The notes beneath the pieces were generated by a model. It was given only the letters and a program-made list of their open reading frames with translations, was not told where the DNA came from and did not search any database. From Fibrobacter succinogenes (GTDB lineage Bacteria; Fibrobacterota; Fibrobacteria; Fibrobacterales; Fibrobacteraceae), in NCBI GenBank assembly GCA_902762795.1, contig CACWPM010000006.1:1-64000 (forward strand): a stretch of 64,000 bases of DNA, read 5' to 3'. Both the position numbers and the translations under genes were made by a program. This document shows, piece after piece, positions 8,663 through 24,720 of this stretch. Within the stretch, counting starts at the first letter, position 1. Every line of letters begins with the position of its first letter.

Positions 8663-8670
8663 TATATTTG
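8663..8670 (+). promoter_or_regulatory. TAnnTTTG -7 motif upstream of gluQ
   Basis: TATATTTG, an exact match to the Bacteroidetes -7 consensus TAnnTTTG, lies 22 bases before the chosen ATG. A TTTG is present further upstream at 8634-8637, somewhat further than the usual 19-21 bp spacing. Confidence 0.5.
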
Positions 8671-8692
8671 TGACGTGACTTACTTTTGCAAT

Positions 8693-9580
8693 ATGCCAGG
8701 AAAAATTCGTTTTGCCCCAAGCCCCACAGGCTATCTCCACGAAGGCCACTTGCTTTCGGCTCTTTACGTGTGGGCAGCAGCCAAAAAATGGGATTTAAAA
8801 ATTCACTTAAGGATAGAGGACCATGACCGAAGCCGTGCGCGTCCCGCATATATCGAAGGAATCCGCGAGGATTTGGCCTGGCTTGGATTTCATTACGATT
8901 CCGAGAGCATACAAAGTGCACGAAACGATATTTACGAAGCGGCTCTCAAAAAACTTGAAGCAAAATCACTCATTTATCCATGCTACTGCAGTCGCAAACA
9001 ACTCCTTGCCGAAAATCCACAAAGCGAGACCGGAGAGATAGTTTATCAAGGCAAGTGTTTTTATAAGACGAGAGATAAGAGACGAGAGACGAGAGAGGAT
9101 TTAAATTCAGCTCCGCATAATTTGCGCTTTATTGTTCCTGATAAATTCATCGACTGGCATGACATGCGTCTCGGAGACTTTCACGAGAACCCGAAACACC
9201 AATGCGGAGACTTCACTATCCGCGATCGCGACAATCAATGGACCTACCAATTCGCCGTATGCGTCGACGACATCGACGAAGGTATCACGCACATCGTTCG
9301 CGGCGAGGACATCCGCAACTCTACGGCCCGCCAAATCGCACTGATGGAAGCACTCGGGCACACCGACCGTCCATTATATTTGCACCACCCGCTAATCGTC
9401 GATTCAAACAACAAAAAACTTTCCAAGCGCGAACTCGCCCATAGCCTGCGTCAAGACAGGGAAGCAGGCGTCACCCCCGAAAAACTTTTCGGACGAGTCT
9501 GCTACAAGGCACATCTGACTGAAAATGACGCTCCGATCACTTTAATGGACGCTATATCCACAATAATAAGGATTCTTTAA
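8693..9580 (+). CDS. gluQ: Glutamyl-queuosine tRNA(Asp) synthetase
   Basis: GluRS-like catalytic core without the anticodon-binding domain (295 aa from the ATG at 8693), the usual size of GluQ-RS. It activates Glu and attaches it to queuosine 34 of tRNA-Asp. Motifs: RFAPSPTGYLHEGH (HIGH-like at 16-19), zinc ligands C97, C99, Y118 and C122 as in E. coli YadB, the VDDIDEGITHIVRGEDI block, and KKLSKRE (KMSKS-like). After the last zinc ligand the loop contains KTRDKRRETRED, encoded by a gacgagaga repeat tract that also occurs between genes; the reading frame is kept. The GTG at 8675 is a less likely start. It precedes the large helicase-nuclease gene by 35 bases. Confidence 0.93.
   Translation: MPGKIRFAPSPTGYLHEGHLLSALYVWAAAKKWDLKIHLRIEDHDRSRARPAYIEGIREDLAWLGFHYDSESIQSARNDIYEAALKKLEAKSLIYPCYCSRKQLLAENPQSETGEIVYQGKCFYKTRDKRRETREDLNSAPHNLRFIVPDKFIDWHDMRLGDFHENPKHQCGDFTIRDRDNQWTYQFAVCVDDIDEGITHIVRGEDIRNSTARQIALMEALGHTDRPLYLHHPLIVDSNNKKLSKRELAHSLRQDREAGVTPEKLFGRVCYKAHLTENDAPITLMDAISTIIRIL
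9067..9099 (+). repeat. gacgagaga-type repeat tract inside gluQ
   Basis: Four imperfect copies of (a)gacgagag occur in a row within the coding sequence, encoding TRDKRRETRE. The same unit occurs in three other genes of the window and in the spacer near 55730. Confidence 0.85.
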
Positions 9581-9603: not shown

Positions 9604-9611
9604 TATATTCG
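9604..9611 (+). promoter_or_regulatory. TAnnTT-type -7 motif 4 bases before the ATG of the helicase-nuclease gene
   Basis: TATATTCG ends four bases before the ATG at 9616. If it is the -7 element, transcription would begin at or next to the start codon, giving a leaderless mRNA. The same arrangement recurs at several genes in the window. Confidence 0.45.
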
Positions 9612-9615
9612 GGGC

Positions 9616-12600
9616 ATGGCATCAACGTCAATGTCCTCAACCATAGAAAAAATCCGAGAAGAGGCGTCCATCTTTGAAAGCAAGGACCGTCTGCTTAGCT
9701 TTTTGCAAAAAAACAAGTTTCAGTCCCCTTTACTATTTGGTAATGGCGACCATTTTTTCGAAACATGGCAAGCAGAAGCGAAACCACGCGCACTTGCGCA
9801 GTTCTTCCCCATTTCTGCGAAATACGATGCAGAGAAGCAAACCGCCGATCTCGAAAAATTTCGCAAAGTGCTTAAATCCAAAACCGAGGATTTTTGCAAC
9901 CAGGATTTATACATGGCGACAGGCTTCATCAAATGGGATGAAAACTCTCTCGCACCAGCGCTTCTCGTACCGCTGACCTACAATGCCGAAAGCGACACCG
10001 TAACAATTTCCAACCGTTCTCCCATTGAAAACGTAGCATTCGCGATGCTAGAAAGAAGCATCAAGTTTCCTACGGCATCCGATTTTTGCATAAACGGAAC
10101 TTTCGAAATACAGAAATTTTTCGACACACTTGAAAAGAAGATTGCACCCAAAGCCGATTGGAAATTCACGCGCAACGGTTACTGCATCACTTTTTATAGC
10201 ACCAACAGTATTCTCCTCCGAAAAAAATTAACTAGCGACTGTTGGACGACCTCCCGAGCCGCCAACAACGAATTTTTCATAGCGACCATCGGCAATGAGG
10301 GTTTCTTTCCTAAGCCATCACTTTTCGAAGACGCCCAATACGACCACGTTTACAACCCTGCCGACCACTATTTTCCTTACACGACCGACTCACAAACAAA
10401 CAAAGCCATCATCGACGCGCTGAATGGAGACAATGATTACGCCATACAGACTCTCCCCGGATCAGAAAAAGCGAAGGTAGCCGTAAACATCGCCGCAGAC
10501 CTCATCCAACAAAAGAAGACAGTCTGCATTATAAGCCGTAGAGCCATTACCAAACTGAATTTTGAAAACACCTGGAAGCCGCCATTCCGTTCATTCCAAG
10601 GGCCAGACCGCGACTCCATAAAGAACTCGCTAAACGACATCCGCGCAAAACTAGTCGCCTATTACGATGCAGTCAATTTTCCGCTCAAGCCAAGCGGCGT
10701 TAAACTATCACATTTATTTGAAGAGGTCGCAAAGCTAAAACCGATTAAAACAAAGTTTGCAAGCGATCTTTTCAATCACATCGAAGATGTCCACTATAAA
10801 AAGTTCAAGTCCATGCAATCAAGCCTTGAACACATGATAGACTTGTTCTTCAACAAGAACGGGATCGAAATATACAATGCGTTCCAGGGAATCAAGCTAT
10901 CCGCCATTTCTCAAGAGCGCAAAAAGGTAATTGGCGATGAATTAGAACTTGCTAAAAATTTGATTAATACCATCAAGCCCTTTACAGAAAGCCTCACCAA
11001 GTCCAAGCTCTATCCCGATGGTTTCAATCTAGCCGACATTATAGAGATATCTGATTTTTTAAAGAAAAATTTCAACGCAGACATGCCCGGTTATGAAGAA
11101 TGGAACCTCCATTCTAGCGGTTGGATAGCTTATCAAGACGACTTGAACGATTTGCCAAGTGCAGGCGAACACTGGTCTAGCTACCGACGTAAAGGCTCCG
11201 ACATTTTTACCGAAGACGCCATAGACAAGGACATCCGCGACCTTCGAAATGAATTTGTCGAAAGTTTAGGTTCAACGCTCAAGGCGCTTTCCGACCACTA
11301 CCGCAGACCCAAGCGCATTTTGCTCAGCGTTTTCAAGAATCCCAAAAGCATCACCTCAGACAACATGCTTGTCGAACAAATCGACAAGCTTATCGAAATA
11401 CAAGATTACAAGCGCAAATACACGGATTCTTCCGTACTCGCCATGCGCTTATTCGGGAAAGACTGGAAATACGAGAAAACCAACTGGAAAGACCTAGCAG
11501 ACAAAATTCACCATTACTTCGCCTTCCGTTCTAGAACAAAGAACAGCAACCAATACGATTATTTAATACAAGTTCTTTCAAAATGGCATTTATTCAAACC
11601 TCTCGCTGCGAATTTGGATACAATCCAAGCCAGCGCAGAAAAATTGCAAAAAAAACTTCAAAGCATAAGCAAGACACTCAACCTGAATGATCAACTGGAT
11701 TTACAAGACGTTTATTTATGGTTCGACAAAGTTGAAAATTGGGCTAAGCAATGGAACGAGCAAGACATCTACTTGCAGCTTTGTGAGCACATGGAAAACA
11801 TCAGCTGTTCTCCATGTGAAAATCTCGCCAGTTTCGTAAAGGATCCAAAGAACGCCAACAAAGATATCGCTGTTGCTTTTGCACGAGCATGGACCAACAG
11901 TCAAATGCAAGCAGCAAACACAACATGCCCGGATTTATTCAGCCCATCTGTCAAAAGCAAAAAACAGCAAAACAAGCAGTACAAAACTCTATTAGATCAA
12001 CTTTGCAATGCAAACTTCCGGGCGGCACACGAGCTCGTTGAAAAAAATCCCGCTTTTTTGCAAAGCATTACATTGTCACAGTCCTACGAACAAAATCTCG
12101 ATTCATTCGATGTTACTTTATTCCTAGACGCAGACTGTATGACAATAGCCGAAGCCATGCCCGGCATTTACAACACAAAGAAAGCAATCCTATTCGGCAA
12201 TCCGTGCGCCCCGTTACTGGAACAGTTGCCCATGGACGCCTGCAATACCGAATTTTCTTCGCAATTCATTTTCTTTAGAGACAACATGCTCTCTGCAGCA
12301 CTTCGCAAAGGGATACCCACACGCGTCATCGGCTATACAACGCAATACGCCAATTCGACACTTTTCAGTTTTGCAAATAAAAGAATTTACGATAACGAAA
12401 TAGTTCAATTTCCGAATTCCACGCAAAGCACGAAGAATTCGCAAAAGCTCGACATCGTTCAAGACAAAATCACGGCCATAGCCGAAAAAGCGATACAACA
12501 TGCAGAGAAAAATCCAAGTCAAACACTCGGGATAGTGGCCTTTAGCCAAACGACTTGCCATAAAATCGAAGACGCCATTAAACAACTTTTAGAAAAAAAT

Positions 12601-13695
12601 ACGAACGTAGCAAAATTCTTTACGCAAGGGAATCTACAGAACAAGTTCTACATCAAGACTATCGAACGAGCCGTTGATCTATACCGCGATGTCATTTTCG
12701 TCTGCACAGACATCGATAACGCAACCGGTCCCACAGGGAACAGGAAGCTAGCCATTTGTACAACACTGGCAAAACAAAATCTCTGTCTTTTCATGAGTAA
12801 CGAAGATTCTGAAAAACTTGCGAAAGCAAAGCCAAACCAGTTGCAAGAATGGGTCAAATTCATTAAAGACAAAGTCACAAGCGATACCAACAGCACCACT
12901 ATCGGATCTTATTTGGAAGAACAAATCAAATCATACCTTATAAAAGAATCGATTTCATTCAGGGATTTTTGCGCAAAAGACTACATCCCGGTTGGTCCTG
13001 CCATCATAGACGCCAACAACAGCAAACGCTTCCTGGCAGTCATTGAATGCGATTGCAGCTACGGACCTTATAAAGAATCTGTAGAAGACCGAGAATATAT
13101 ACGTCCGAACACGCTTTCTAGGCTCGGTTGGAAAGTGTTGAACATGTGGCTTCCACTTTGGGACATCTCAAACGCAGATGAAAAAGAACACCTCATTACG
13201 ACAATTGCGATTGAACAAAGCGTAGCTCCACAGCCACAGGAAGACGATTCTCTTGATGAAGAAAATCTTGACAGCACCGTCAAGATCGAACCATACAAAG
13301 TGACTCACCTAGCAATTGCAGGGACGCCGGACGCATCCCCAATTCCAGAACTTTCGATGGATAAACTCATCAACCAATTAAAATACTATGTCGACAACGA
13401 GTCCCCTATTCACGGAGAGCTCTTGTTCCAAAGGCTGTTGGAGCTGCACCACGTAGATAACGCAACGCCCAAGATAAACGCAACACTGAATGAAGCTGTT
13501 AAGCAGGCGCTGCACCAAAAGCTATTTGTCAAGACAGGCCCGTTCTTCTATTCACTTACGAACAAAGCGACCATACTCCGCGACCGATCCAAGAGACCGG
13601 ACAACGAACGCAAGATGGCGTATGTCCCCCCCGAAGAGCGCGCACTGCTAAAGCACGATGACCACAGCATCAAGAAAATGCTGGGAGTGATGTAA
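9616..13695 (+). CDS. DUF4011/superfamily 1 helicase-like/Vsr-like nuclease/DUF3320 protein with degenerate ATPase motifs
   Basis: A 1359-aa protein whose segment order matches large single-gene defence candidates (DUF4011-helicase-Vsr-DUF3320; I recall the name Hhe for this layout but cannot verify it). Residues about 60-240 resemble DUF4011. The P-loop region at about 280-287 reads LPGSEKAK where GPPGTGKS is expected, so the second Gly is Glu and the Ser/Thr is Ala. The Walker B site at about 836 is LFLDADC instead of DEAS. Motif VI is TLAK instead of TRAR. By contrast the nuclease segment (about 1096-1195) keeps LEEQIKSYL, AIIDAN and VIECDC, the acidic PD-(D/E)XK-like core. A DUF3320-like domain follows at about 1242-1315. 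It may restrict foreign DNA without ATP-driven unwinding (inference). The start at 9616 is favoured; an ATG at 9631 is the alternative. Confidence 0.8.
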   Translation: MASTSMSSTIEKIREEASIFESKDRLLSFLQKNKFQSPLLFGNGDHFFETWQAEAKPRALAQFFPISAKYDAEKQTADLEKFRKVLKSKTEDFCNQDLYMATGFIKWDENSLAPALLVPLTYNAESDTVTISNRSPIENVAFAMLERSIKFPTASDFCINGTFEIQKFFDTLEKKIAPKADWKFTRNGYCITFYSTNSILLRKKLTSDCWTTSRAANNEFFIATIGNEGFFPKPSLFEDAQYDHVYNPADHYFPYTTDSQTNKAIIDALNGDNDYAIQTLPGSEKAKVAVNIAADLIQQKKTVCIISRRAITKLNFENTWKPPFRSFQGPDRDSIKNSLNDIRAKLVAYYDAVNFPLKPSGVKLSHLFEEVAKLKPIKTKFASDLFNHIEDVHYKKFKSMQSSLEHMIDLFFNKNGIEIYNAFQGIKLSAISQERKKVIGDELELAKNLINTIKPFTESLTKSKLYPDGFNLADIIEISDFLKKNFNADMPGYEEWNLHSSGWIAYQDDLNDLPSAGEHWSSYRRKGSDIFTEDAIDKDIRDLRNEFVESLGSTLKALSDHYRRPKRILLSVFKNPKSITSDNMLVEQIDKLIEIQDYKRKYTDSSVLAMRLFGKDWKYEKTNWKDLADKIHHYFAFRSRTKNSNQYDYLIQVLSKWHLFKPLAANLDTIQASAEKLQKKLQSISKTLNLNDQLDLQDVYLWFDKVENWAKQWNEQDIYLQLCEHMENISCSPCENLASFVKDPKNANKDIAVAFARAWTNSQMQAANTTCPDLFSPSVKSKKQQNKQYKTLLDQLCNANFRAAHELVEKNPAFLQSITLSQSYEQNLDSFDVTLFLDADCMTIAEAMPGIYNTKKAILFGNPCAPLLEQLPMDACNTEFSSQFIFFRDNMLSAALRKGIPTRVIGYTTQYANSTLFSFANKRIYDNEIVQFPNSTQSTKNSQKLDIVQDKITAIAEKAIQHAEKNPSQTLGIVAFSQTTCHKIEDAIKQLLEKNTNVAKFFTQGNLQNKFYIKTIERAVDLYRDVIFVCTDIDNATGPTGNRKLAICTTLAKQNLCLFMSNEDSEKLAKAKPNQLQEWVKFIKDKVTSDTNSTTIGSYLEEQIKSYLIKESISFRDFCAKDYIPVGPAIIDANNSKRFLAVIECDCSYGPYKESVEDREYIRPNTLSRLGWKVLNMWLPLWDISNADEKEHLITTIAIEQSVAPQPQEDDSLDEENLDSTVKIEPYKVTHLAIAGTPDASPIPELSMDKLINQLKYYVDNESPIHGELLFQRLLELHHVDNATPKINATLNEAVKQALHQKLFVKTGPFFYSLTNKATILRDRSKRPDNERKMAYVPPEERALLKHDDHSIKKMLGVM

Positions 13696-13931: not shown

Positions 13932-14333
13932 CTACCGAATCTTGACGACAAAAGCGTTAATGTTGTACGCGGAAAGTTCGCGTGCTTTATCTTCGGCTAC
14001 TTTGCGCTTTGTCCATCCGCCGCCACGAAGCTTGTAGAACGGCGTATCAAAGACGACCTGGATTGTGTATCCTGTGCTTGCGGAAAGCTGCGCCTTGCGC
14101 CTTTGTGCGGCGTCAAAATCACCGACAGCTTCGAACTGGAGCATATAGAAGCCATCAGACTTGTCATTCTTGCCAGAGACTTTTGCAGGAACGGCAGAAT
14201 TACTTGTTGTGTCACGGAGAGAGGCGCTGAGCGTTGGCTTGTACTCGTTTCCACGGAAAAGAGAATCCAAATCTGTTGGCGATCCAGCCCAAGCCATAGC
14301 GCATAAAGAGACTGCAATTATAATCTTTCGCAT
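13932..14333 (-). CDS. Small exported SPOR-domain protein
   Basis: 133 aa from ATG 14333 (three in-frame codons of spacer upstream start at a TTG). A signal peptide (MRKIIIAVSLCAMAWAG) is followed by a short Ser/Thr-rich stretch and a C-terminal SPOR domain (about 60-133: FYMLQFEAVGDFDAAQRRKAQL ... YKLRGGGWTKRKVAEDKARELS..INAFVVKI). SPOR domains bind denuded septal peptidoglycan, so a periplasmic role at the division site is likely. The canonical beta-alpha-beta-beta-alpha-beta pattern is complete. A TATATTGG motif ends 5 bases before the start, suggesting a leaderless or very short-leader transcript separate from the upstream fibro-slime gene. Confidence 0.85.
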   Translation of the reverse strand: MRKIIIAVSLCAMAWAGSPTDLDSLFRGNEYKPTLSASLRDTTSNSAVPAKVSGKNDKSDGFYMLQFEAVGDFDAAQRRKAQLSASTGYTIQVVFDTPFYKLRGGGWTKRKVAEDKARELSAYNINAFVVKIR

Positions 14334-14338
14334 GTTCA

Positions 14339-14346
14339 CCAATATA
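14339..14346 (-). promoter_or_regulatory. TATATTGG -7 type motif at the SPOR gene start
   Basis: Read on the minus strand, TATATTGG lies 5 bases upstream of the ATG at 14333 and directly follows the terminator of the upstream gene, as expected for an independent promoter. Confidence 0.5.
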
Positions 14347-14394: not shown

Positions 14395-17300
14395 TTATTT
14401 GCCCTTTATAATCGGGAGACTTCCAATGACCTTCGTGTTGTGACGAACACCCCACATTTCGGTCTTGTCAATCTTGTTCTTCTTGCCAAACTTGCCAAGC
14501 TGAACGAAAGACTTGACCTTGGACACGTAGGCACCAGAGCCCACGAGACGCTTCTTGTCAGACTTCATGTTCCAGATGACAAAGACGTTCATGCGTTTCT
14601 GGACGCAGTCCGTACCGCCGAAGAATTCTCTCTTAAATTCCGCCTTGTTCTTCTTGTCATCGCAATAAATGCGGAAGTTCTTTGTCAAGACATGAGAACC
14701 GAGGTTCGAGAAGAGGTTGATTTCATAATCGAAGAACGTGTTTTCCTTAATTGTAGAATCCTGGGCATATTGTTCCTTGGATTCAATCAAAGCACCCATA
14801 TCGCTCTTGATAAACCAACCATGCGGAACAAAGTGGTAATCGCCAAATTCACCTGTACCATTAAGCATATCATTTTTGAAGTCATTCATATCCTTATTGG
14901 CATCGTACGTGAACACATCCGAAGGCGGAAGCTTCTCGATATCGCTCGGCGAGAGCGGAACTCCACCGTATCCTTCACCAATAATTCTTTCGGCGTAGGA
15001 GCTCACTTCACCAGAAACCAAGACCCACGGAGACGGAAGACGTACCGTTGCATCATAGCCTGTTGCGGTATTCCACTTGAAGTTGGCTTCATCTGCAGAA
15101 CGAATCGTGTCGCCACCCGGATAATCGGCATAGTCAGACATATCCTTCAAAAGACCGAAGCCAGCAATACCTCTGATGCGGATGTAATCACCAGCCTGCG
15201 GGAACGTCTTGGACTGATCATAAAGCATCGTCTTAGAAGAGTCAATCGAAGCACCGAGAGAATATATAGAAGAGAACGGCAGATAATCGGCATATTCAGG
15301 ATTCTTGCCATTGTTAATGTAGAAGGAAAGAACCTTATCGCCTTCAGCAGCACCTTCATCTGTTCTCTGGAGATCTTCGGAGAACTGCACCTTCAACTGA
15401 GCAGCGTCCACACCGTTCTGGCTTTCGGTAGTCACTCTTGCAGAGATGATAATCGGAGCAATACGGTCATAAACATCAGCAGTGTAGAATTTAGTCACAA
15501 CCTCACCACCACGAGACTTAAAGGTAGCCCAGGACTTAACCTTACCCTTACCATTTGTCTTCACAGCTTTAGAGAACTTCTTGCCACCGAGCGTAATTCT
15601 TGGCTTGCATAATGTATCGTTCAATCCTGCAGCAGAACCGCAGACGGAACCGGCCTTGATTTCATCGCCTTCAAATACAACAGAGTCCTTATCATCATGA
15701 TCCCAGAAGACGGCAATCTTACTCGGGAGAGAGTCTCTGTGGAAATTTCGCATGTAGTAAACAACGATGGAGTCACCGATACCGTCGAGATATTCCTTGT
15801 TCTTATCAAAGTACGGAGCCGGAATGTTCAAATCAGAGGCAGGAAGTTCGCCATGGACGTCAAAGATATCTGCAAATTTCGGCGTCGGGACAGGCGGTTC
15901 CACAAACTGCATATTTTCGTATATAGCCTGTTGGAAGCTGCCACCTTCACCAAGCACCTGGATACTTGCGGTCTTGCAGCCAGCAGCAGCGCCAGCATCA
16001 CACCTTTCATAAACCACGTCTGACTTAATGAAGAACTTTGCCCTACCATTTACGAGTACCGTAGACAATCCTCCAAAATCGGACATGTCAGGTGCTTTAA
16101 ACGTGATACCAGAACTAGTCTTCGATGCGCCCTGGCCAAGTTTAAAGTTGCAGTCCGAGCAGAATACATATTCTAGAGTACCGTCAGCCTTGGTCTGAGG
16201 AATAAACGCAGCAACATAGAATTCATAGGTAAGACCCCTCATACGAGTAAAATCGTTGTCATCTTTCGAGATAATCTTAAGAGACGTTTCGGATTCCACG
16301 AATTCAATTTTGGGCACGATGAACGAAAGAGTATCCCTGAGAGCGTTATCGGTCGTCTTTATAATAATCTTTTCTTCATTGCCGGTCATTTCAGCATAAG
16401 GAACGGAGACGTAAAGGGTATCTACACCACCCGCACCCAAAGCACGGCCACTGATACCGGTTACAGAAAGCTTTCCATTATCCAGCTTATAGAAGTTGAC
16501 CTTATTACTTACATCCTTACCGTTAACATCCTGGACAAGCAAACTATATTGAGAATTCTGGGACGGAGTAAATTTGAGCGGATCAGTGCAACCTTGAACG
16601 TTGCCACAAGGATCCGTCACAGCTCCGATATAAACCGGAATGAGTTGATCGACACTCACGGAATCCGATGTAGCCATAGCCCAGCTCTTGTGCGGAAGCT
16701 GAGTGATCGAGCCATTGTCGTCAATAATGGCATTACGGTTGGCAACACCGATTGAACCCTTCACAGTCAACTTATGAATAACACCTTTATCAAGGAATTT
16801 GCCATCCTTGTCATAAATCTTTACAACAAGATAATAATCACCAGGACCACGGCCAACTCTCAAGCTATCATCGTTGACAACAGGATCACCCGGTTTAGTA
16901 ACATCGACACCACCATTATAATATCTTGGGGTCTTGGCAAAGCATGCTTCATCACATTCCGCAGGTTCCGTGAGGGATGAATCCTGTGTAAATACATAGC
17001 CCAACTTGTAGCCAGCAGTGAGAATGGTATCACGGCAAGATTCTTTTTCACCAGCACCACCGCATTTACCAGAGCTGCTCTCCTTAAAGCAAACCCTAAT
17101 ATGGTTGTCGCCATTCACAACAAAGTCTTGTATAAATTCCTTTAGTTTTTCTTCACTCTTGATACCCGTGGTCTGTTCCAAGAACATATTCGTCTTGATA
17201 CGGACGTTACTCATCGTCGTACGGCGGTCGCAGAAGAAAATATCGATATCATAATGTTTACCCGTAGCAGAATCGAGATTAACACCATTTTTCTTCAAGA

Positions 17301-19194
17301 AATAGTCCACATCCACATAGGCCGGAGCGGCAAGGTGAGTACCACCAAGGTCCACGGCAAGTTTGTTATCGATAAAGACCCAAATATCATCGTCACCACG
17401 GAAGTTGAACTTCAAACCAGGTTGGTAAACGAAGTCTGCATGGGATTCGAAGCAGAAGTGCTGGTTACGACCACCATTTTTAGAGGACACATCAGATCCC
17501 CAACGAGAGTCTTCTGTACCTTTATCTTCAGTATCTGTTTTATAAAGCGGCCAACCAGCAGGAGCATCATTGGGGCAGCTCCAACCAAAAACACATACAT
17601 CATTCATCCAATTCATTGCAGTTCGTATAGCTTCTTCTGTTTCAGTACCGTCATTAAACAGATGATTTCTTTCACCACAATCATGGCCTTTATTCCAACC
17701 AGGGCCATTACAGAAGACGTCAATTCTCGGAATCTGTTCTGTAGGATCATTTTCACGGAGTCTTGATCCATAATACACAGGACCTTGAGCATAACGTTTT
17801 TTACGAGCAGCAGGGAGCGGAGTCTGAACACTACCATCCGGCAACAAAGTCGCCAAGATCTTAGCATTGTCAGTATCTTCTACAGGATAGAAGCCACCAG
17901 GAATCTTAACGGTAAGGCCGTCACTCAAATAGGTATCGGAGTCAAATTCCCACTTGCCATCGGATGCCAGGTCAAACGGCAGGTCATAGCAAGAAAACTC
18001 ATTGACAGACGGAGTATAGTTAAACAACTGATTGAAGTACTTGTCATCGATAAAGCACTTTTTACCGGCAGCAGAAAGTTTCGGCTTCTTGGTAGCCTTG
18101 TCCAAAGTCGATTCTACGAGGCCCGTATGAACACCGAGACAGCTATAGATGGCAGTAAGAGCTTCAGTCTTGGCAACTCCTTGAGCAGCAGTGGTGGCAC
18201 CACCTTCCGCAGCCTGGCACCCATCACCCGAGACGTCTGCACCTTGGCGCCAGCAAGAGAAGAGCGGATGCAAGCTAGCATCGGTATCATAAATTTTTGC
18301 AGCAAGGAAATAGCGGCAATCCCCCACAACACCTTCAGGACGTTCCACAAACCAACCTGGTAGGCTAGATTGATGTTCAGCAGCTTTCTTTTCATCAGCG
18401 ATAAAGAATGCAGCATGGCTATATTTTGCATCAGCTTCAAAAGCATTAAAAATGCCAGCCAATTCAATCGGAGTCGCAGAAATACCGGCATTAAGATCTT
18501 TTTCGCCATTCATGCCTATGGCTTCTGCGAGCGAAGCATCGGACTTTTTGTGAATGAGAACCTTTTCCGGAAGAGGTTCATCGATATAGCGCCTGAAACG
18601 CCATCCGCAACGAGACGGGTCCACATGCAATTCACGGTCTTTGCCATCTTCTCGGATTACCGGAATAGCACTCTTCCAAGCCTGGTTGTCCGGTAAGAAA
18701 ACATAGAAGTCCTTGACATTTGGCTCTGTCTTGGTCACATAAACCTGGCCCGCTTTATTCGGATCCGGATGTTCCTGAATCCAAATTTCAGAAGTGGATG
18801 CATTCACGTGGCTGCACTGGAAGCCTTCAACACGCGCGTTATTCGTCTTCGATCCAAAAGCATTAACGGTAACACACAGTCCATCATTACAGTCGTTCTT
18901 GTTCACGCCGTTAATGAAGAAGAAGTTGTCATCGTTAGTCTTTTTGGAACTAAAATCAAACGTAGTCCAACCATTGGCATCGGCCTTGGGAAATAAATTT
19001 CCGGAACCGCTAATCATCAAGAAAGCGTTAGTCCAGCCCTCTGGTAATTTAAAGTGAACTTTCGGCGTACATGCAGTACTACTAGTAGCAGATGTTTTTA
19101 AGTCAGCCCAAGCTCCTGATGCTCCAACAAGGAGGAAACTCAGCACCATAGCAACACTGTGCAAAGCGTTATAACGTGTTTTCATATTTTTCAT
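14395..19194 (-). CDS. Giant fibro-slime domain surface protein
   Basis: About 1599 aa from the ATG at 19194 (ATG 19185 is equally possible). A signal peptide (NALHSVAMVLSFLLVGASGAWA) shows export. A fibro-slime domain (TIGR02148-type) spans about residues 500-680: paired Cys motifs (CNGPGWNKGHDCGERNH), FRGDDDIWVFIDNKLAVDLGG, and the closing IFFCDRRTTMSNVRIKTN. The remainder is long, beta-rich and Cys-containing, with repeated bacterial Ig-like character but no recognisable catalytic site. In F. succinogenes fibro-slime proteins are associated with adhesion to cellulose (family knowledge), so a cell-surface adhesion or envelope role is inferred. The gene is monocistronic, with its own terminator and a 450-base upstream region. 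Confidence 0.9.
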   Translation of the reverse strand: MKNMKTRYNALHSVAMVLSFLLVGASGAWADLKTSATSSTACTPKVHFKLPEGWTNAFLMISGSGNLFPKADANGWTTFDFSSKKTNDDNFFFINGVNKNDCNDGLCVTVNAFGSKTNNARVEGFQCSHVNASTSEIWIQEHPDPNKAGQVYVTKTEPNVKDFYVFLPDNQAWKSAIPVIREDGKDRELHVDPSRCGWRFRRYIDEPLPEKVLIHKKSDASLAEAIGMNGEKDLNAGISATPIELAGIFNAFEADAKYSHAAFFIADEKKAAEHQSSLPGWFVERPEGVVGDCRYFLAAKIYDTDASLHPLFSCWRQGADVSGDGCQAAEGGATTAAQGVAKTEALTAIYSCLGVHTGLVESTLDKATKKPKLSAAGKKCFIDDKYFNQLFNYTPSVNEFSCYDLPFDLASDGKWEFDSDTYLSDGLTVKIPGGFYPVEDTDNAKILATLLPDGSVQTPLPAARKKRYAQGPVYYGSRLRENDPTEQIPRIDVFCNGPGWNKGHDCGERNHLFNDGTETEEAIRTAMNWMNDVCVFGWSCPNDAPAGWPLYKTDTEDKGTEDSRWGSDVSSKNGGRNQHFCFESHADFVYQPGLKFNFRGDDDIWVFIDNKLAVDLGGTHLAAPAYVDVDYFLKKNGVNLDSATGKHYDIDIFFCDRRTTMSNVRIKTNMFLEQTTGIKSEEKLKEFIQDFVVNGDNHIRVCFKESSSGKCGGAGEKESCRDTILTAGYKLGYVFTQDSSLTEPAECDEACFAKTPRYYNGGVDVTKPGDPVVNDDSLRVGRGPGDYYLVVKIYDKDGKFLDKGVIHKLTVKGSIGVANRNAIIDDNGSITQLPHKSWAMATSDSVSVDQLIPVYIGAVTDPCGNVQGCTDPLKFTPSQNSQYSLLVQDVNGKDVSNKVNFYKLDNGKLSVTGISGRALGAGGVDTLYVSVPYAEMTGNEEKIIIKTTDNALRDTLSFIVPKIEFVESETSLKIISKDDNDFTRMRGLTYEFYVAAFIPQTKADGTLEYVFCSDCNFKLGQGASKTSSGITFKAPDMSDFGGLSTVLVNGRAKFFIKSDVVYERCDAGAAAGCKTASIQVLGEGGSFQQAIYENMQFVEPPVPTPKFADIFDVHGELPASDLNIPAPYFDKNKEYLDGIGDSIVVYYMRNFHRDSLPSKIAVFWDHDDKDSVVFEGDEIKAGSVCGSAAGLNDTLCKPRITLGGKKFSKAVKTNGKGKVKSWATFKSRGGEVVTKFYTADVYDRIAPIIISARVTTESQNGVDAAQLKVQFSEDLQRTDEGAAEGDKVLSFYINNGKNPEYADYLPFSSIYSLGASIDSSKTMLYDQSKTFPQAGDYIRIRGIAGFGLLKDMSDYADYPGGDTIRSADEANFKWNTATGYDATVRLPSPWVLVSGEVSSYAERIIGEGYGGVPLSPSDIEKLPPSDVFTYDANKDMNDFKNDMLNGTGEFGDYHFVPHGWFIKSDMGALIESKEQYAQDSTIKENTFFDYEINLFSNLGSHVLTKNFRIYCDDKKNKAEFKREFFGGTDCVQKRMNVFVIWNMKSDKKRLVGSGAYVSKVKSFVQLGKFGKKNKIDKTEMWGVRHNTKVIGSLPIIKGK

Positions 19195-19645
19195 CCATTT
19201 GGTTTTTAAAGCCAATGAGGCAAACAAAAAGACCGGCCTTCTTGAAAGCCACACACTACCGAAATCTACTTTTTTAATTCAAAAAAGGAAATTTTTTCTT
19301 TTAAAGAAATGTGAAAAAAAATTTATACAAACAAATCCATACATTTATTCACCGCTTTTCAACAGAAAATTTACAATAACAAATTCCCATTTTTAAAAGT
19401 AAAAATTTGTTTACAAAACAAGATGTATCACAGGTGTATTATACAGATTAACGGCGAAAAATTTTGATCAATAGTTCATTAAATTTTTTCATAGACAAGA
19501 AGGCAACCCCGGAACGGAGTCCGGCGCGACAAGAGCAAGAACTAGAAACGCCAGATGACAATCGGTGGAAAAAGGTCCTATATTTGAGACGGGTATGTGC
19601 ATACCGGACCAAGCTCTAAGGCCGGAATGACAATGCGGAGTTTTT
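19195..19645. other. Divergent upstream region of fibro-slime and FHA-GGDEF genes
   Basis: AT-rich on the left half. An inverted repeat AACAAATT (19378-19385) / AATTTGTT (19404-19411) lies about 190 bases upstream of the fibro-slime start and could be an operator (low certainty). The right third (19497-19640) is REP-like repeat sequence. Confidence 0.5.
19497..19640. repeat. REP-like repeat cluster supplying the RBS of the next gene
   Basis: Contains gaaggcaaccccggaacgg...ccggcgcgac and aaggccggaatgacaatgcgg units of the dispersed 'ggaatgac' family. The last bases (gcggag, 19635-19640) act as the Shine-Dalgarno of the FHA-GGDEF gene. Confidence 0.65.
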
Positions 19646-23427: not shown

Positions 23428-24720
23428 TCAATCAAAGTCTGTGGGAATGCCGCTGAGCATGCCACAGATTTCAGGGCCAATGACGCCATTCTGGATGGCG
23501 ATGGTGAGCAAGCGCTGTTCAAGTTCTTGTGGCGGGAAGCGAAGACCGACCGAAGTAGCCACAGGCTCTTCGACATTTTCGCCATCGTCAAAAGTCGCAC
23601 GCCCCCCTTCGAGATTCGCGCGTTCCGCCAACGATTTTTCCAGCACAAGGAGTTCGGCAAGCGCGGCATGCAGCGCAAGCGAAGTGTCGATATACTTGAG
23701 GTGCGTAGGCTCTTCGAGGATAAAGTTCAGCGGTCCCTTGGCATTGAGTACTTTTTCGACGGGAATCGCAGCACCATACTCATCCTCGACGCCCATGTTT
23801 GCAAGAACAGCCTTGGTCGAGAGGAGCGATTTTTGCAACTCGGAAGCAGCCAAGGCGTCTTTTACGCCCGTTGCCGTCACCACAAAATCGGCATTTTCAA
23901 TCAACGCAGAAACCGTCGGATAATCATGGCAATCGACGACATTGACACCATTTTGCTCTAAAACCGCAGAAAAATTCCCCGTTGGCATGGAATTTGCAGT
24001 ATTTCCCTGTTGCACGAGAACTCCGAACTGCGCGGCTTGTTCGGAATTTTCGGAATTTTCGGACTGCGCGGACAGCTCGGACATCGCGCGTTTCAAGTCC
24101 GTCACGACAGTCACATTGCAACCGTGACGCACCCCCTGGAGAGCAATTCCAGAACCGACCTTGCCACTACCAAAAACCAATAACTTCTTGCCTTCGAAAT
24201 CGCCACCAAAACCCAACTTTTCAAGAGCACGGAAATAGCCATCACCTGTTCCCAGGGAAGTTTCAATTCGCTTTACAATTCCGCTATCGGCAACATAGAC
24301 CGGCTTTTCCGCATTCTCATAGTACTGGACCCCAGAACGAGTGAGTTCCACAAAGCCAATTTTCGGATGGAGCCCAGCAAAAGGCCCCGCACAGTCAAGC
24401 ACCAAATCCACAAATTCGCCACGAGCTTCCGCCTCAAGCATTTCTGCAGGAGTCACGACCGGAATTCCCAAATCCTTCAAGAAATCGACAATTTTACCAT
24501 CGTTCATCCCGGAAAGACCGACCAAAAGCTTCGCCCCGCCCGCCAAAAGCGCACGATACTCGGTCATCGTGTTGCGGTAAATCGGAGTTGCCACAAGTAC
24601 ACGAAGTCCATCAAACGGCCGCGTTTCGCTCCATTCGCCTTGGAGCGCCGCAAGCGCCGGGTATTCGTTTTTTTCGTAAACTTCATCCAGGATAGAAGAG
24701 AGAAACGGTTGTAAATCCAT
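23428..24720 (-). CDS. Adenosylhomocysteinase-like NAD-binding protein
   Basis: 430 aa, the size of S-adenosylhomocysteine hydrolase. The C-terminal half has the AdoHcyase NAD fold: KKLLVFGSGKVGSGIALQGVRHGCNVTVVTD, DFVVTATG and AVLANMGVEDEYGAAIPV, which aligns with the family's ANxGHFDxEI block but lacks the His. The N-terminal substrate region is strongly diverged (GLRVLVATPIYRNTMTEYRALLAGGAKLLVG). It is therefore likely an NAD-dependent relative rather than a standard AHCY. A short Ser/Glu/Asn repeat (SAQSENSENSEQAA) is inserted after the NAD-binding beta strand. A TATATTTC motif lies 5 bases before the ATG. Confidence 0.6.
   Translation of the reverse strand: MDLQPFLSSILDEVYEKNEYPALAALQGEWSETRPFDGLRVLVATPIYRNTMTEYRALLAGGAKLLVGLSGMNDGKIVDFLKDLGIPVVTPAEMLEAEARGEFVDLVLDCAGPFAGLHPKIGFVELTRSGVQYYENAEKPVYVADSGIVKRIETSLGTGDGYFRALEKLGFGGDFEGKKLLVFGSGKVGSGIALQGVRHGCNVTVVTDLKRAMSELSAQSENSENSEQAAQFGVLVQQGNTANSMPTGNFSAVLEQNGVNVVDCHDYPTVSALIENADFVVTATGVKDALAASELQKSLLSTKAVLANMGVEDEYGAAIPVEKVLNAKGPLNFILEEPTHLKYIDTSLALHAALAELLVLEKSLAERANLEGGRATFDDGENVEEPVATSVGLRFPPQELEQRLLTIAIQNGVIGPEICGMLSGIPTDFD

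Follow-up and report, generated by a model that had tools for sequence, protein, structure and literature searches.

Can a gene of anti-phage ancestry be kept as a core gene after its catalytic motifs have been lost, and if so, what is it kept for? Defence genes are usually viewed as mobile and quickly lost. The question is raised by a gene at 9616..13695 on the forward strand of a 64,000-nucleotide stretch of Fibrobacter succinogenes DNA (contig CACWPM010000006.1, positions 1 to 64,000; the whole stretch is referred to here as the window). The gene encodes a pseudo-helicase/pseudo-nuclease of 1359 residues, recognized from a single open reading frame that begins with an ATG, from its orthologues and from the ratio of nonsynonymous to synonymous substitution rates (dN/dS). 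A preliminary description, made from the sequence alone, had noted an intact frame of about 4 kb, and that frame stands.

The protein is homologous to anti-phage helicase-nucleases, its motifs are broken in all of its orthologues, and the gene has a fixed locus, a single copy, purifying selection and a conserved -10 element. With a probability of roughly 0.55, we consider that a defence helicase-nuclease has been exapted for a non-catalytic role, that of a scaffold or scanner, and kept as a single-copy core gene.

Homology and domain layout

The protein has the domain order of ProA/PDC-S37 systems, that is, DUF4011, a split RecA-like helicase, an MTES_1575 nuclease and DUF3320. This is the DUF4011-helicase-Vsr-DUF3320 layout proposed at the outset, and homology bears it out, both through Pfam matches and through an alignment of the family profile with six live relatives (hhalign probability 100, E = 5e-72, 1295 columns aligned). 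The Pfam matches all fall below the gathering score: DUF4011 at residues 66-129 (E = 0.003), the MTES_1575 Vsr-type restriction endonuclease PF18741 at residues 1129-1197 (2.3e-6) and DUF3320 PF11784 at residues 1250-1287 (0.0059). Among the PADLOC profiles, the protein matches PDC-S37 at 1.6e-110 and Hhe at 8.2e-18, and PDC-S37 is matched by 23/23 representatives. The NCBIfam models give 216.9 bits for antiphage ProA (NF058533, 3.9e-64) against a curated cut-off of 1500, and 64.9 bits for Hhe (NF042953, 2.6e-18) against a cut-off of 2000; a live Fibrobacter protein, L050, scores 2043 bits with the ProA model. The 1295 aligned columns thus make its homology with the anti-phage DUF4011 helicase-nucleases secure, whereas full membership is not secure, because the ProA score lies below its cut-off. 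A search of the PDB gave no sequence match of the protein to any solved structure.

Several differences separate the protein from these systems. Compared with ProA/PDC-S37, its helicase motifs and nuclease Asp are broken, it is core and chromosomal instead of mobile, and it is shorter (about 1360 residues versus 1540-1960). With Hhe it shares a homologous C-terminal helicase and nuclease region, but it is without the catalytic motifs, and Hhe is found on conjugative and other plasmids. Nothing useful on the mechanism of DUF4011 or PDC-S37 was found in the open literature.

Loss of the helicase motifs

The motifs were counted in the window copy together with 88 non-redundant full-length orthologues from seven Fibrobacteraceae genera (n = 89), and were compared with seven live relatives, from Haloferax, Indioceanicola, Raoultella and Acinetobacter plasmids and from three Fibrobacter genomes. 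The live relatives resemble the UPF1, Sen1 and SMUBP-2 helicases. Working versions of Walker A, Walker B and motifs III, V and VI are missing in all 89 sequences.

The Walker A or P-loop remnant is TLPGSEKAKV (residues 279-288; 10450..10479, +), where live relatives have GPPGTGKSQT. At its sixth position Gly is found in 0/89, and the Ser/Thr of the eighth position is retained in just 3/89. The Walker B remnant, LFLDADC (residues 835-841; 12118..12138, +), corresponds to live FDEASQ, which has become LDADC: in the ungapped register the first Asp is Leu in 88/89 and the catalytic Glu is Asp in 89/89, while a one-residue shift would make the pair D-A, so that the DE pair is lost in either register. 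The motif VI remnant, RKLAICTTLAKQ (residues 1043-1054; 12742..12777, +), has lost the arginine finger; live RRLNVAxTRAK (the relatives end in TRAK, SRAK or SRSR) has become RKLAICTTLAK, the Arg being replaced by Leu in 80/89 and by His in 9/89. Motif III (live GDxxQ, here GNPCA) and motif V (live VQGDERD, here AVDLYRD) are likewise broken, and the Gln of the Q-motif is lost.

The three broken motifs first reported (Walker A as LPGSEKAK, Walker B as LFLDADC and motif VI as TLAK) are therefore confirmed against the seven live relatives. The same motifs proved broken in 89/89 when orthologues were examined, as the preliminary description had suggested should be checked. Two observations that it named as fatal to its view, a hidden normal P-loop and close orthologues with normal P-loops, were not made: the pattern GxxxxGK[ST] is absent throughout the focal protein and the 88 orthologues. 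The most divergent genus, g11, has PGTDGGKT or PGTDNGKT, in which the GK is out of register with the P-loop.

It might be supposed that most lineages still bind ATP with what is left of the P-loop, the protein acting as a nucleotide-binding, non-hydrolysing switch. The PGT/S part of the P-loop is conserved, and the Lys of the seventh position is kept in 72/89. But another residue (W, A, G, L, R or N) takes the place of that Lys in the other 17/89, the Ser/Thr next to it is lost in 86/89, and both the Gly before it and the Walker B DE pair are gone in 89/89; we strongly doubt this explanation.

The nuclease region

The Vsr/MTES_1575-type PD-(D/E)xK nuclease fold (residues 1095-1200; 12898..13215, +), recognized from Pfam and from the alignment with live relatives, has a partly degraded active site. 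The first Asp of this site is near-universal in PD-(D/E)xK nucleases. In the live relatives it stands in IDLAI or IDMGI and aligns without gaps to Gly1127 (codon at 12994..12996, +), a column that is Asp in 7/7 live relatives and 0/89 orthologues (Gly 76, Gln 5, Ser 3, Cys 2, and Glu, Leu and Ala once each). Measured against the Vsr/MTES_1575 pattern D ... ExDG..Y/H, the orthologues have lost the first Asp, the Gly and the conserved Y/H, the latter two from the positions after IECD, and have kept the ExD, since E1144-x-D1146 of IECD (13045..13053, +) has both residues in 89/89.

An intact nuclease core had been proposed from the acidic residues of AIID and IECD. The core is not intact, as the canonical Asp is missing in every orthologue, and only the second pair of residues holds its place in the active site. 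Asp1132 of AIID (13009..13011, +), present in 88/89, belongs to a hairpin turn (DANN) and lies off the canonical catalytic position; in live relatives, position 1132 is H, D or K alongside the retained Asp at 1127. Loss of the PD-(D/E)xK Asp indicates that nuclease activity has most likely been lost.

The alternative is that only the ATPase is dead and that the nuclease survives through a rearranged site, for example D1132 with E1144/D1146. It would account for the retention of D1132, E1144, D1146 and also D1158 (87/89), and for a dN/dS of 0.064 in the nuclease region. However, 89/89 lack the Asp that every live relative has at 1127, its proposed substitute lies five residues off, in a turn, and is also Asp in some live relatives that retain the real one, and the Gly and Y/H after ExD are lost, so that we consider a rearranged site quite improbable. 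Three live long-form proteins, L049, L050 and L171, have the first Asp and the DG but are missing the ExD Glu (GILCDG, GIIVDG), which means that nuclease active sites vary even where the helicase is intact.

Selection and conservation

The median dN/dS is 0.069 (Nei-Gojobori, 106 pairs). Domain by domain it runs from 0.050 to 0.077, dead motifs included, and no region is relaxed. The best conserved parts are the stretch TIAIEQSVAP, the DUF3320 region and the C-terminal tail. TIAIEQSVAP (13201..13230, +) is family-specific and is the most conserved stretch of ten residues, with a mean identity of 0.96. The DUF3320 winged-helix region (residues 1230-1312; 13303..13551, +; PF11784) has the highest domain conservation, 0.72; the winged-helix fold has been assigned to DUF3320 previously (PMC3710099).

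Decay or relaxed selection is ruled out by these ratios. The relaxed selection throughout the gene that would have spoken against a functional shift is not seen, and the initial view that the gene had shifted in function instead of decaying is sustained by a dN/dS of about 0.07 in every domain together with the family-wide loss of motifs. A decaying pseudogene whose frame has stayed intact by chance could point to two interrupted copies in metagenome-assembled genomes (a stop in G031 and a split in G032), but it is hardly credible with domain-by-domain dN/dS values that all lie far below 1, a frame that stays open in almost all of the 93 genomes that carry the gene, and a conserved promoter element.

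Distribution and history

The sample comprised 111 Fibrobacteraceae genomes, many of them metagenome-assembled; those with a completeness of at least 90% and a contamination of at most 5% were regarded as good. The gene was found in 93/111 genomes, nearly always as one full-length copy, and a few low-completeness or draft genomes carry it in pieces. It is present in 49/56 good genomes; six of the seven good genomes without it belong to g3, g4 and g8, and the seventh, G108, to g11, a genus that otherwise carries the gene. Among good genomes of the carrying genera, it is found in 49/50. A full-length orthologue was not found in the rest of the phylum by single-sequence and profile searches of 167 genomes.

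In the rpoB tree, from which g9 and g3 are missing because rpoB was not found there, the carrying genera g1, g5, g6, g7, g10 and g11 form one clade with 100/100 support, and g4 and g8 lie outside it. The gene tree yields the same genus groups, and identity between genera and distant species is 27-45%. The most parsimonious history has a single capture and an inactivation on the stem of the clade, followed by vertical inheritance with one loss or more (G108). An ancestor of part of the Fibrobacteraceae would have acquired a helicase-nuclease of the ProA/Hhe (PDC-S37, DUF4011) type next to gluQRS; its ATPase activity and, most likely, its nuclease activity would have disappeared before the carrying genera split, and it would then have been kept as a single-copy core gene under its own promoter. 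The functional shift is ancient.

Live relatives were found on 382 plasmid records, many of them annotated as anti-phage Hhe, and none was confirmed as phage-borne in IMG/VR. Full-length live relatives occur in just three family genomes, all Fibrobacter: L048 (G061), L049 (G035) and L050 (G063). These are of the ProA/PDC-S37 type with intact helicase motifs, and the same genomes also carry the dead core copy. A role as dominant-negative partner of a resident live paralogue is unlikely, a full-length live copy being present in only those three genomes.

The locus, its predicted promoter and the question of immunity

Thirty-eight loci longer than 9 kb were compared. A gluQRS-like glutamyl-Q tRNA(Asp) synthetase gene (8675..9580, +; tRNA-synt_1c 4.1e-52) is the immediate upstream neighbour, in the same orientation, in 34/38 loci, and genes farther upstream vary. 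Downstream of the focal gene in the window are a SPOR-domain protein (13932..14342, -; PF05036 2.6e-7), with a gene at the same position in about half of the loci, and a PA14/fibro-slime-type protein of 1619 residues (14395..19254, -; PF07691 1.3e-4), found in 27/38 loci. The neighbours are housekeeping genes (topoisomerase, glycosidase and exonuclease upstream; peptide-chain release factor and PrmC farther along), and no defence genes or defence island were found among the neighbour genes examined. The description of the protein as defence-like is therefore apt for its homology to ProA/Hhe, but not for its setting, that of a fixed core gene between housekeeping neighbours. The patchy, mobile distribution that marks ProA and Hhe is not seen here, as the gene occupies a fixed locus in single copy. 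In Pseudomonas aeruginosa, a DUF4011 gene flanking cDHS1 is present in every isolate, i.e., it is core (PMC10250203); that gene borders a defence hotspot, whereas the focal locus does not.

A -10-like element, TATATT (9604..9609, +), stands 12 nucleotides before the ATG and is predicted to belong to the gene's own promoter. TATATT occurs within 60 nucleotides upstream in 87/87 orthologues with a usable start, at a distance of 12 nucleotides from the ATG in 77, 13 in 2 and 15 in 8, compared with a background of about 0.0003 per nucleotide. This spacing would fit a promoter belonging to the gene itself, from which transcripts begin at the AUG or right beside it, and a leaderless mRNA is accordingly a prediction. 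TATATT 12-13 nucleotides before the start was also seen at gluQRS (8663-8668) and upstream of the gene at 23428-24720 (-); in all, 3/36 window genes checked have it at leaderless-type spacing.

The main rival explanation is that the protein still serves immunity: vertically inherited and non-catalytic, it would sense phage or DNA damage and call in or set off a separate effector. Three observations would suit a sensor: every close live relative is anti-phage, the gene changes quickly compared with other core genes, as its identities between genera and distant species attest, and G108 is without it. The fixed position between gluQRS and the SPOR/PA14 genes, the near-universal single copy in good genomes of the carrying genera, the failure to find defence genes among the neighbours examined and uniform purifying selection make an immune role unlikely.

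Proposed role as a scaffold or scanner

How might a protein of this kind act? By analogy with RecC and AddB, we infer a non-catalytic protein that serves as a scaffold or scanner. The inactivated superfamily 1 (SF1) helicase domains of AddB and RecC are sequence scanners that scan for Chi (PMC4824097). The focal protein would likewise be a dead SF1 helicase kept by selection, a likeness read from its sequence. Its dead RecA-like pair and its winged helix probably enable it to bind nucleic acid: the pair and the dead Vsr domain may provide a surface for nucleic acid or a partner, the winged-helix C-terminus may bind DNA, and a separate live enzyme would perform the chemistry, as happens with the dead SF1 domains of RecC/AddB in RecBCD/AddAB. 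We see about an even chance that the protein is an exapted core housekeeping factor, a nucleic-acid scanner or scaffold without any ATPase motif or nuclease Asp, and a UPF1-like parallel to RecC/AddB. The DNA-binding scaffold with nuclease that was first envisaged is plausible as to the scaffold, because the C-terminal DUF3320 winged helix is the best conserved domain; the nuclease part falls with the Asp that is gone in all 89.

The comparison with RecC/AddB concerns the working principle and not membership. RecC and AddB are UvrD-like, whereas the live relatives of the focal protein are UPF1/Sen1/SMUBP2-like; the genome has a separate RecC gene, and neither NCBIfam, Pfam nor PDB gave a sequence match of the focal protein to RecC/AddB. 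The idea that it stands in for a missing RecC or AddB was rejected, as RecC occurs both with and without the gene. The PDDEXK_1 model for AddB/RecB-type nucleases matched 6/16 genomes and was uninformative.

Several observations weigh against a non-catalytic scaffold or scanner. No partner was found; RecC occurs whether or not the gene is there. Basic character is confined to the P-loop region (family median isoelectric point 9.5), and the nuclease region is acidic (4.8). The invariance of E1144 and D1146 is not required of a wholly dead nuclease. Catalytic positions are kept in 11/32 cases and other positions invariant in live relatives in 42/109 (Fisher p = 0.84); preferential loss of catalytic residues is thus unsupported, and the data show an absence of catalytic constraint, not targeted inactivation. 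AlphaFold models from three sequences were unusable for residues 806-1359 and 1078-1212 (pLDDT, the predicted local distance difference test score, 37.5 and 38.6), and retention of the fold rests on sequence conservation as the models are of low confidence. As to the distribution, the gene can be dispensed with: G108 (L140) has gluQRS but no focal gene after it, an apparent lineage-specific loss in g11. In two metagenome-assembled genomes the copies are interrupted, through assembly error or real loss: L096 (G032) is split into two frames near residue 207-228, and L082 (G031) has an in-frame TAG before residue 97.

Significance

For defence-gene annotation, the case is a warning: profiles built to find defence systems (here PDC-S37 at 1e-110) may pick out housekeeping pseudoenzymes throughout the genomes of a genus. 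If the scanner reading is true, the protein is a candidate for a dead-helicase scanner that arose a second time, independently, among UPF1-like helicases and in parallel to RecC and AddB. For the Fibrobacteraceae, a defence gene appears to have become fixed as a core gene of part of the family after losing its catalytic residues, and it offers a tractable case of immune-gene exaptation.

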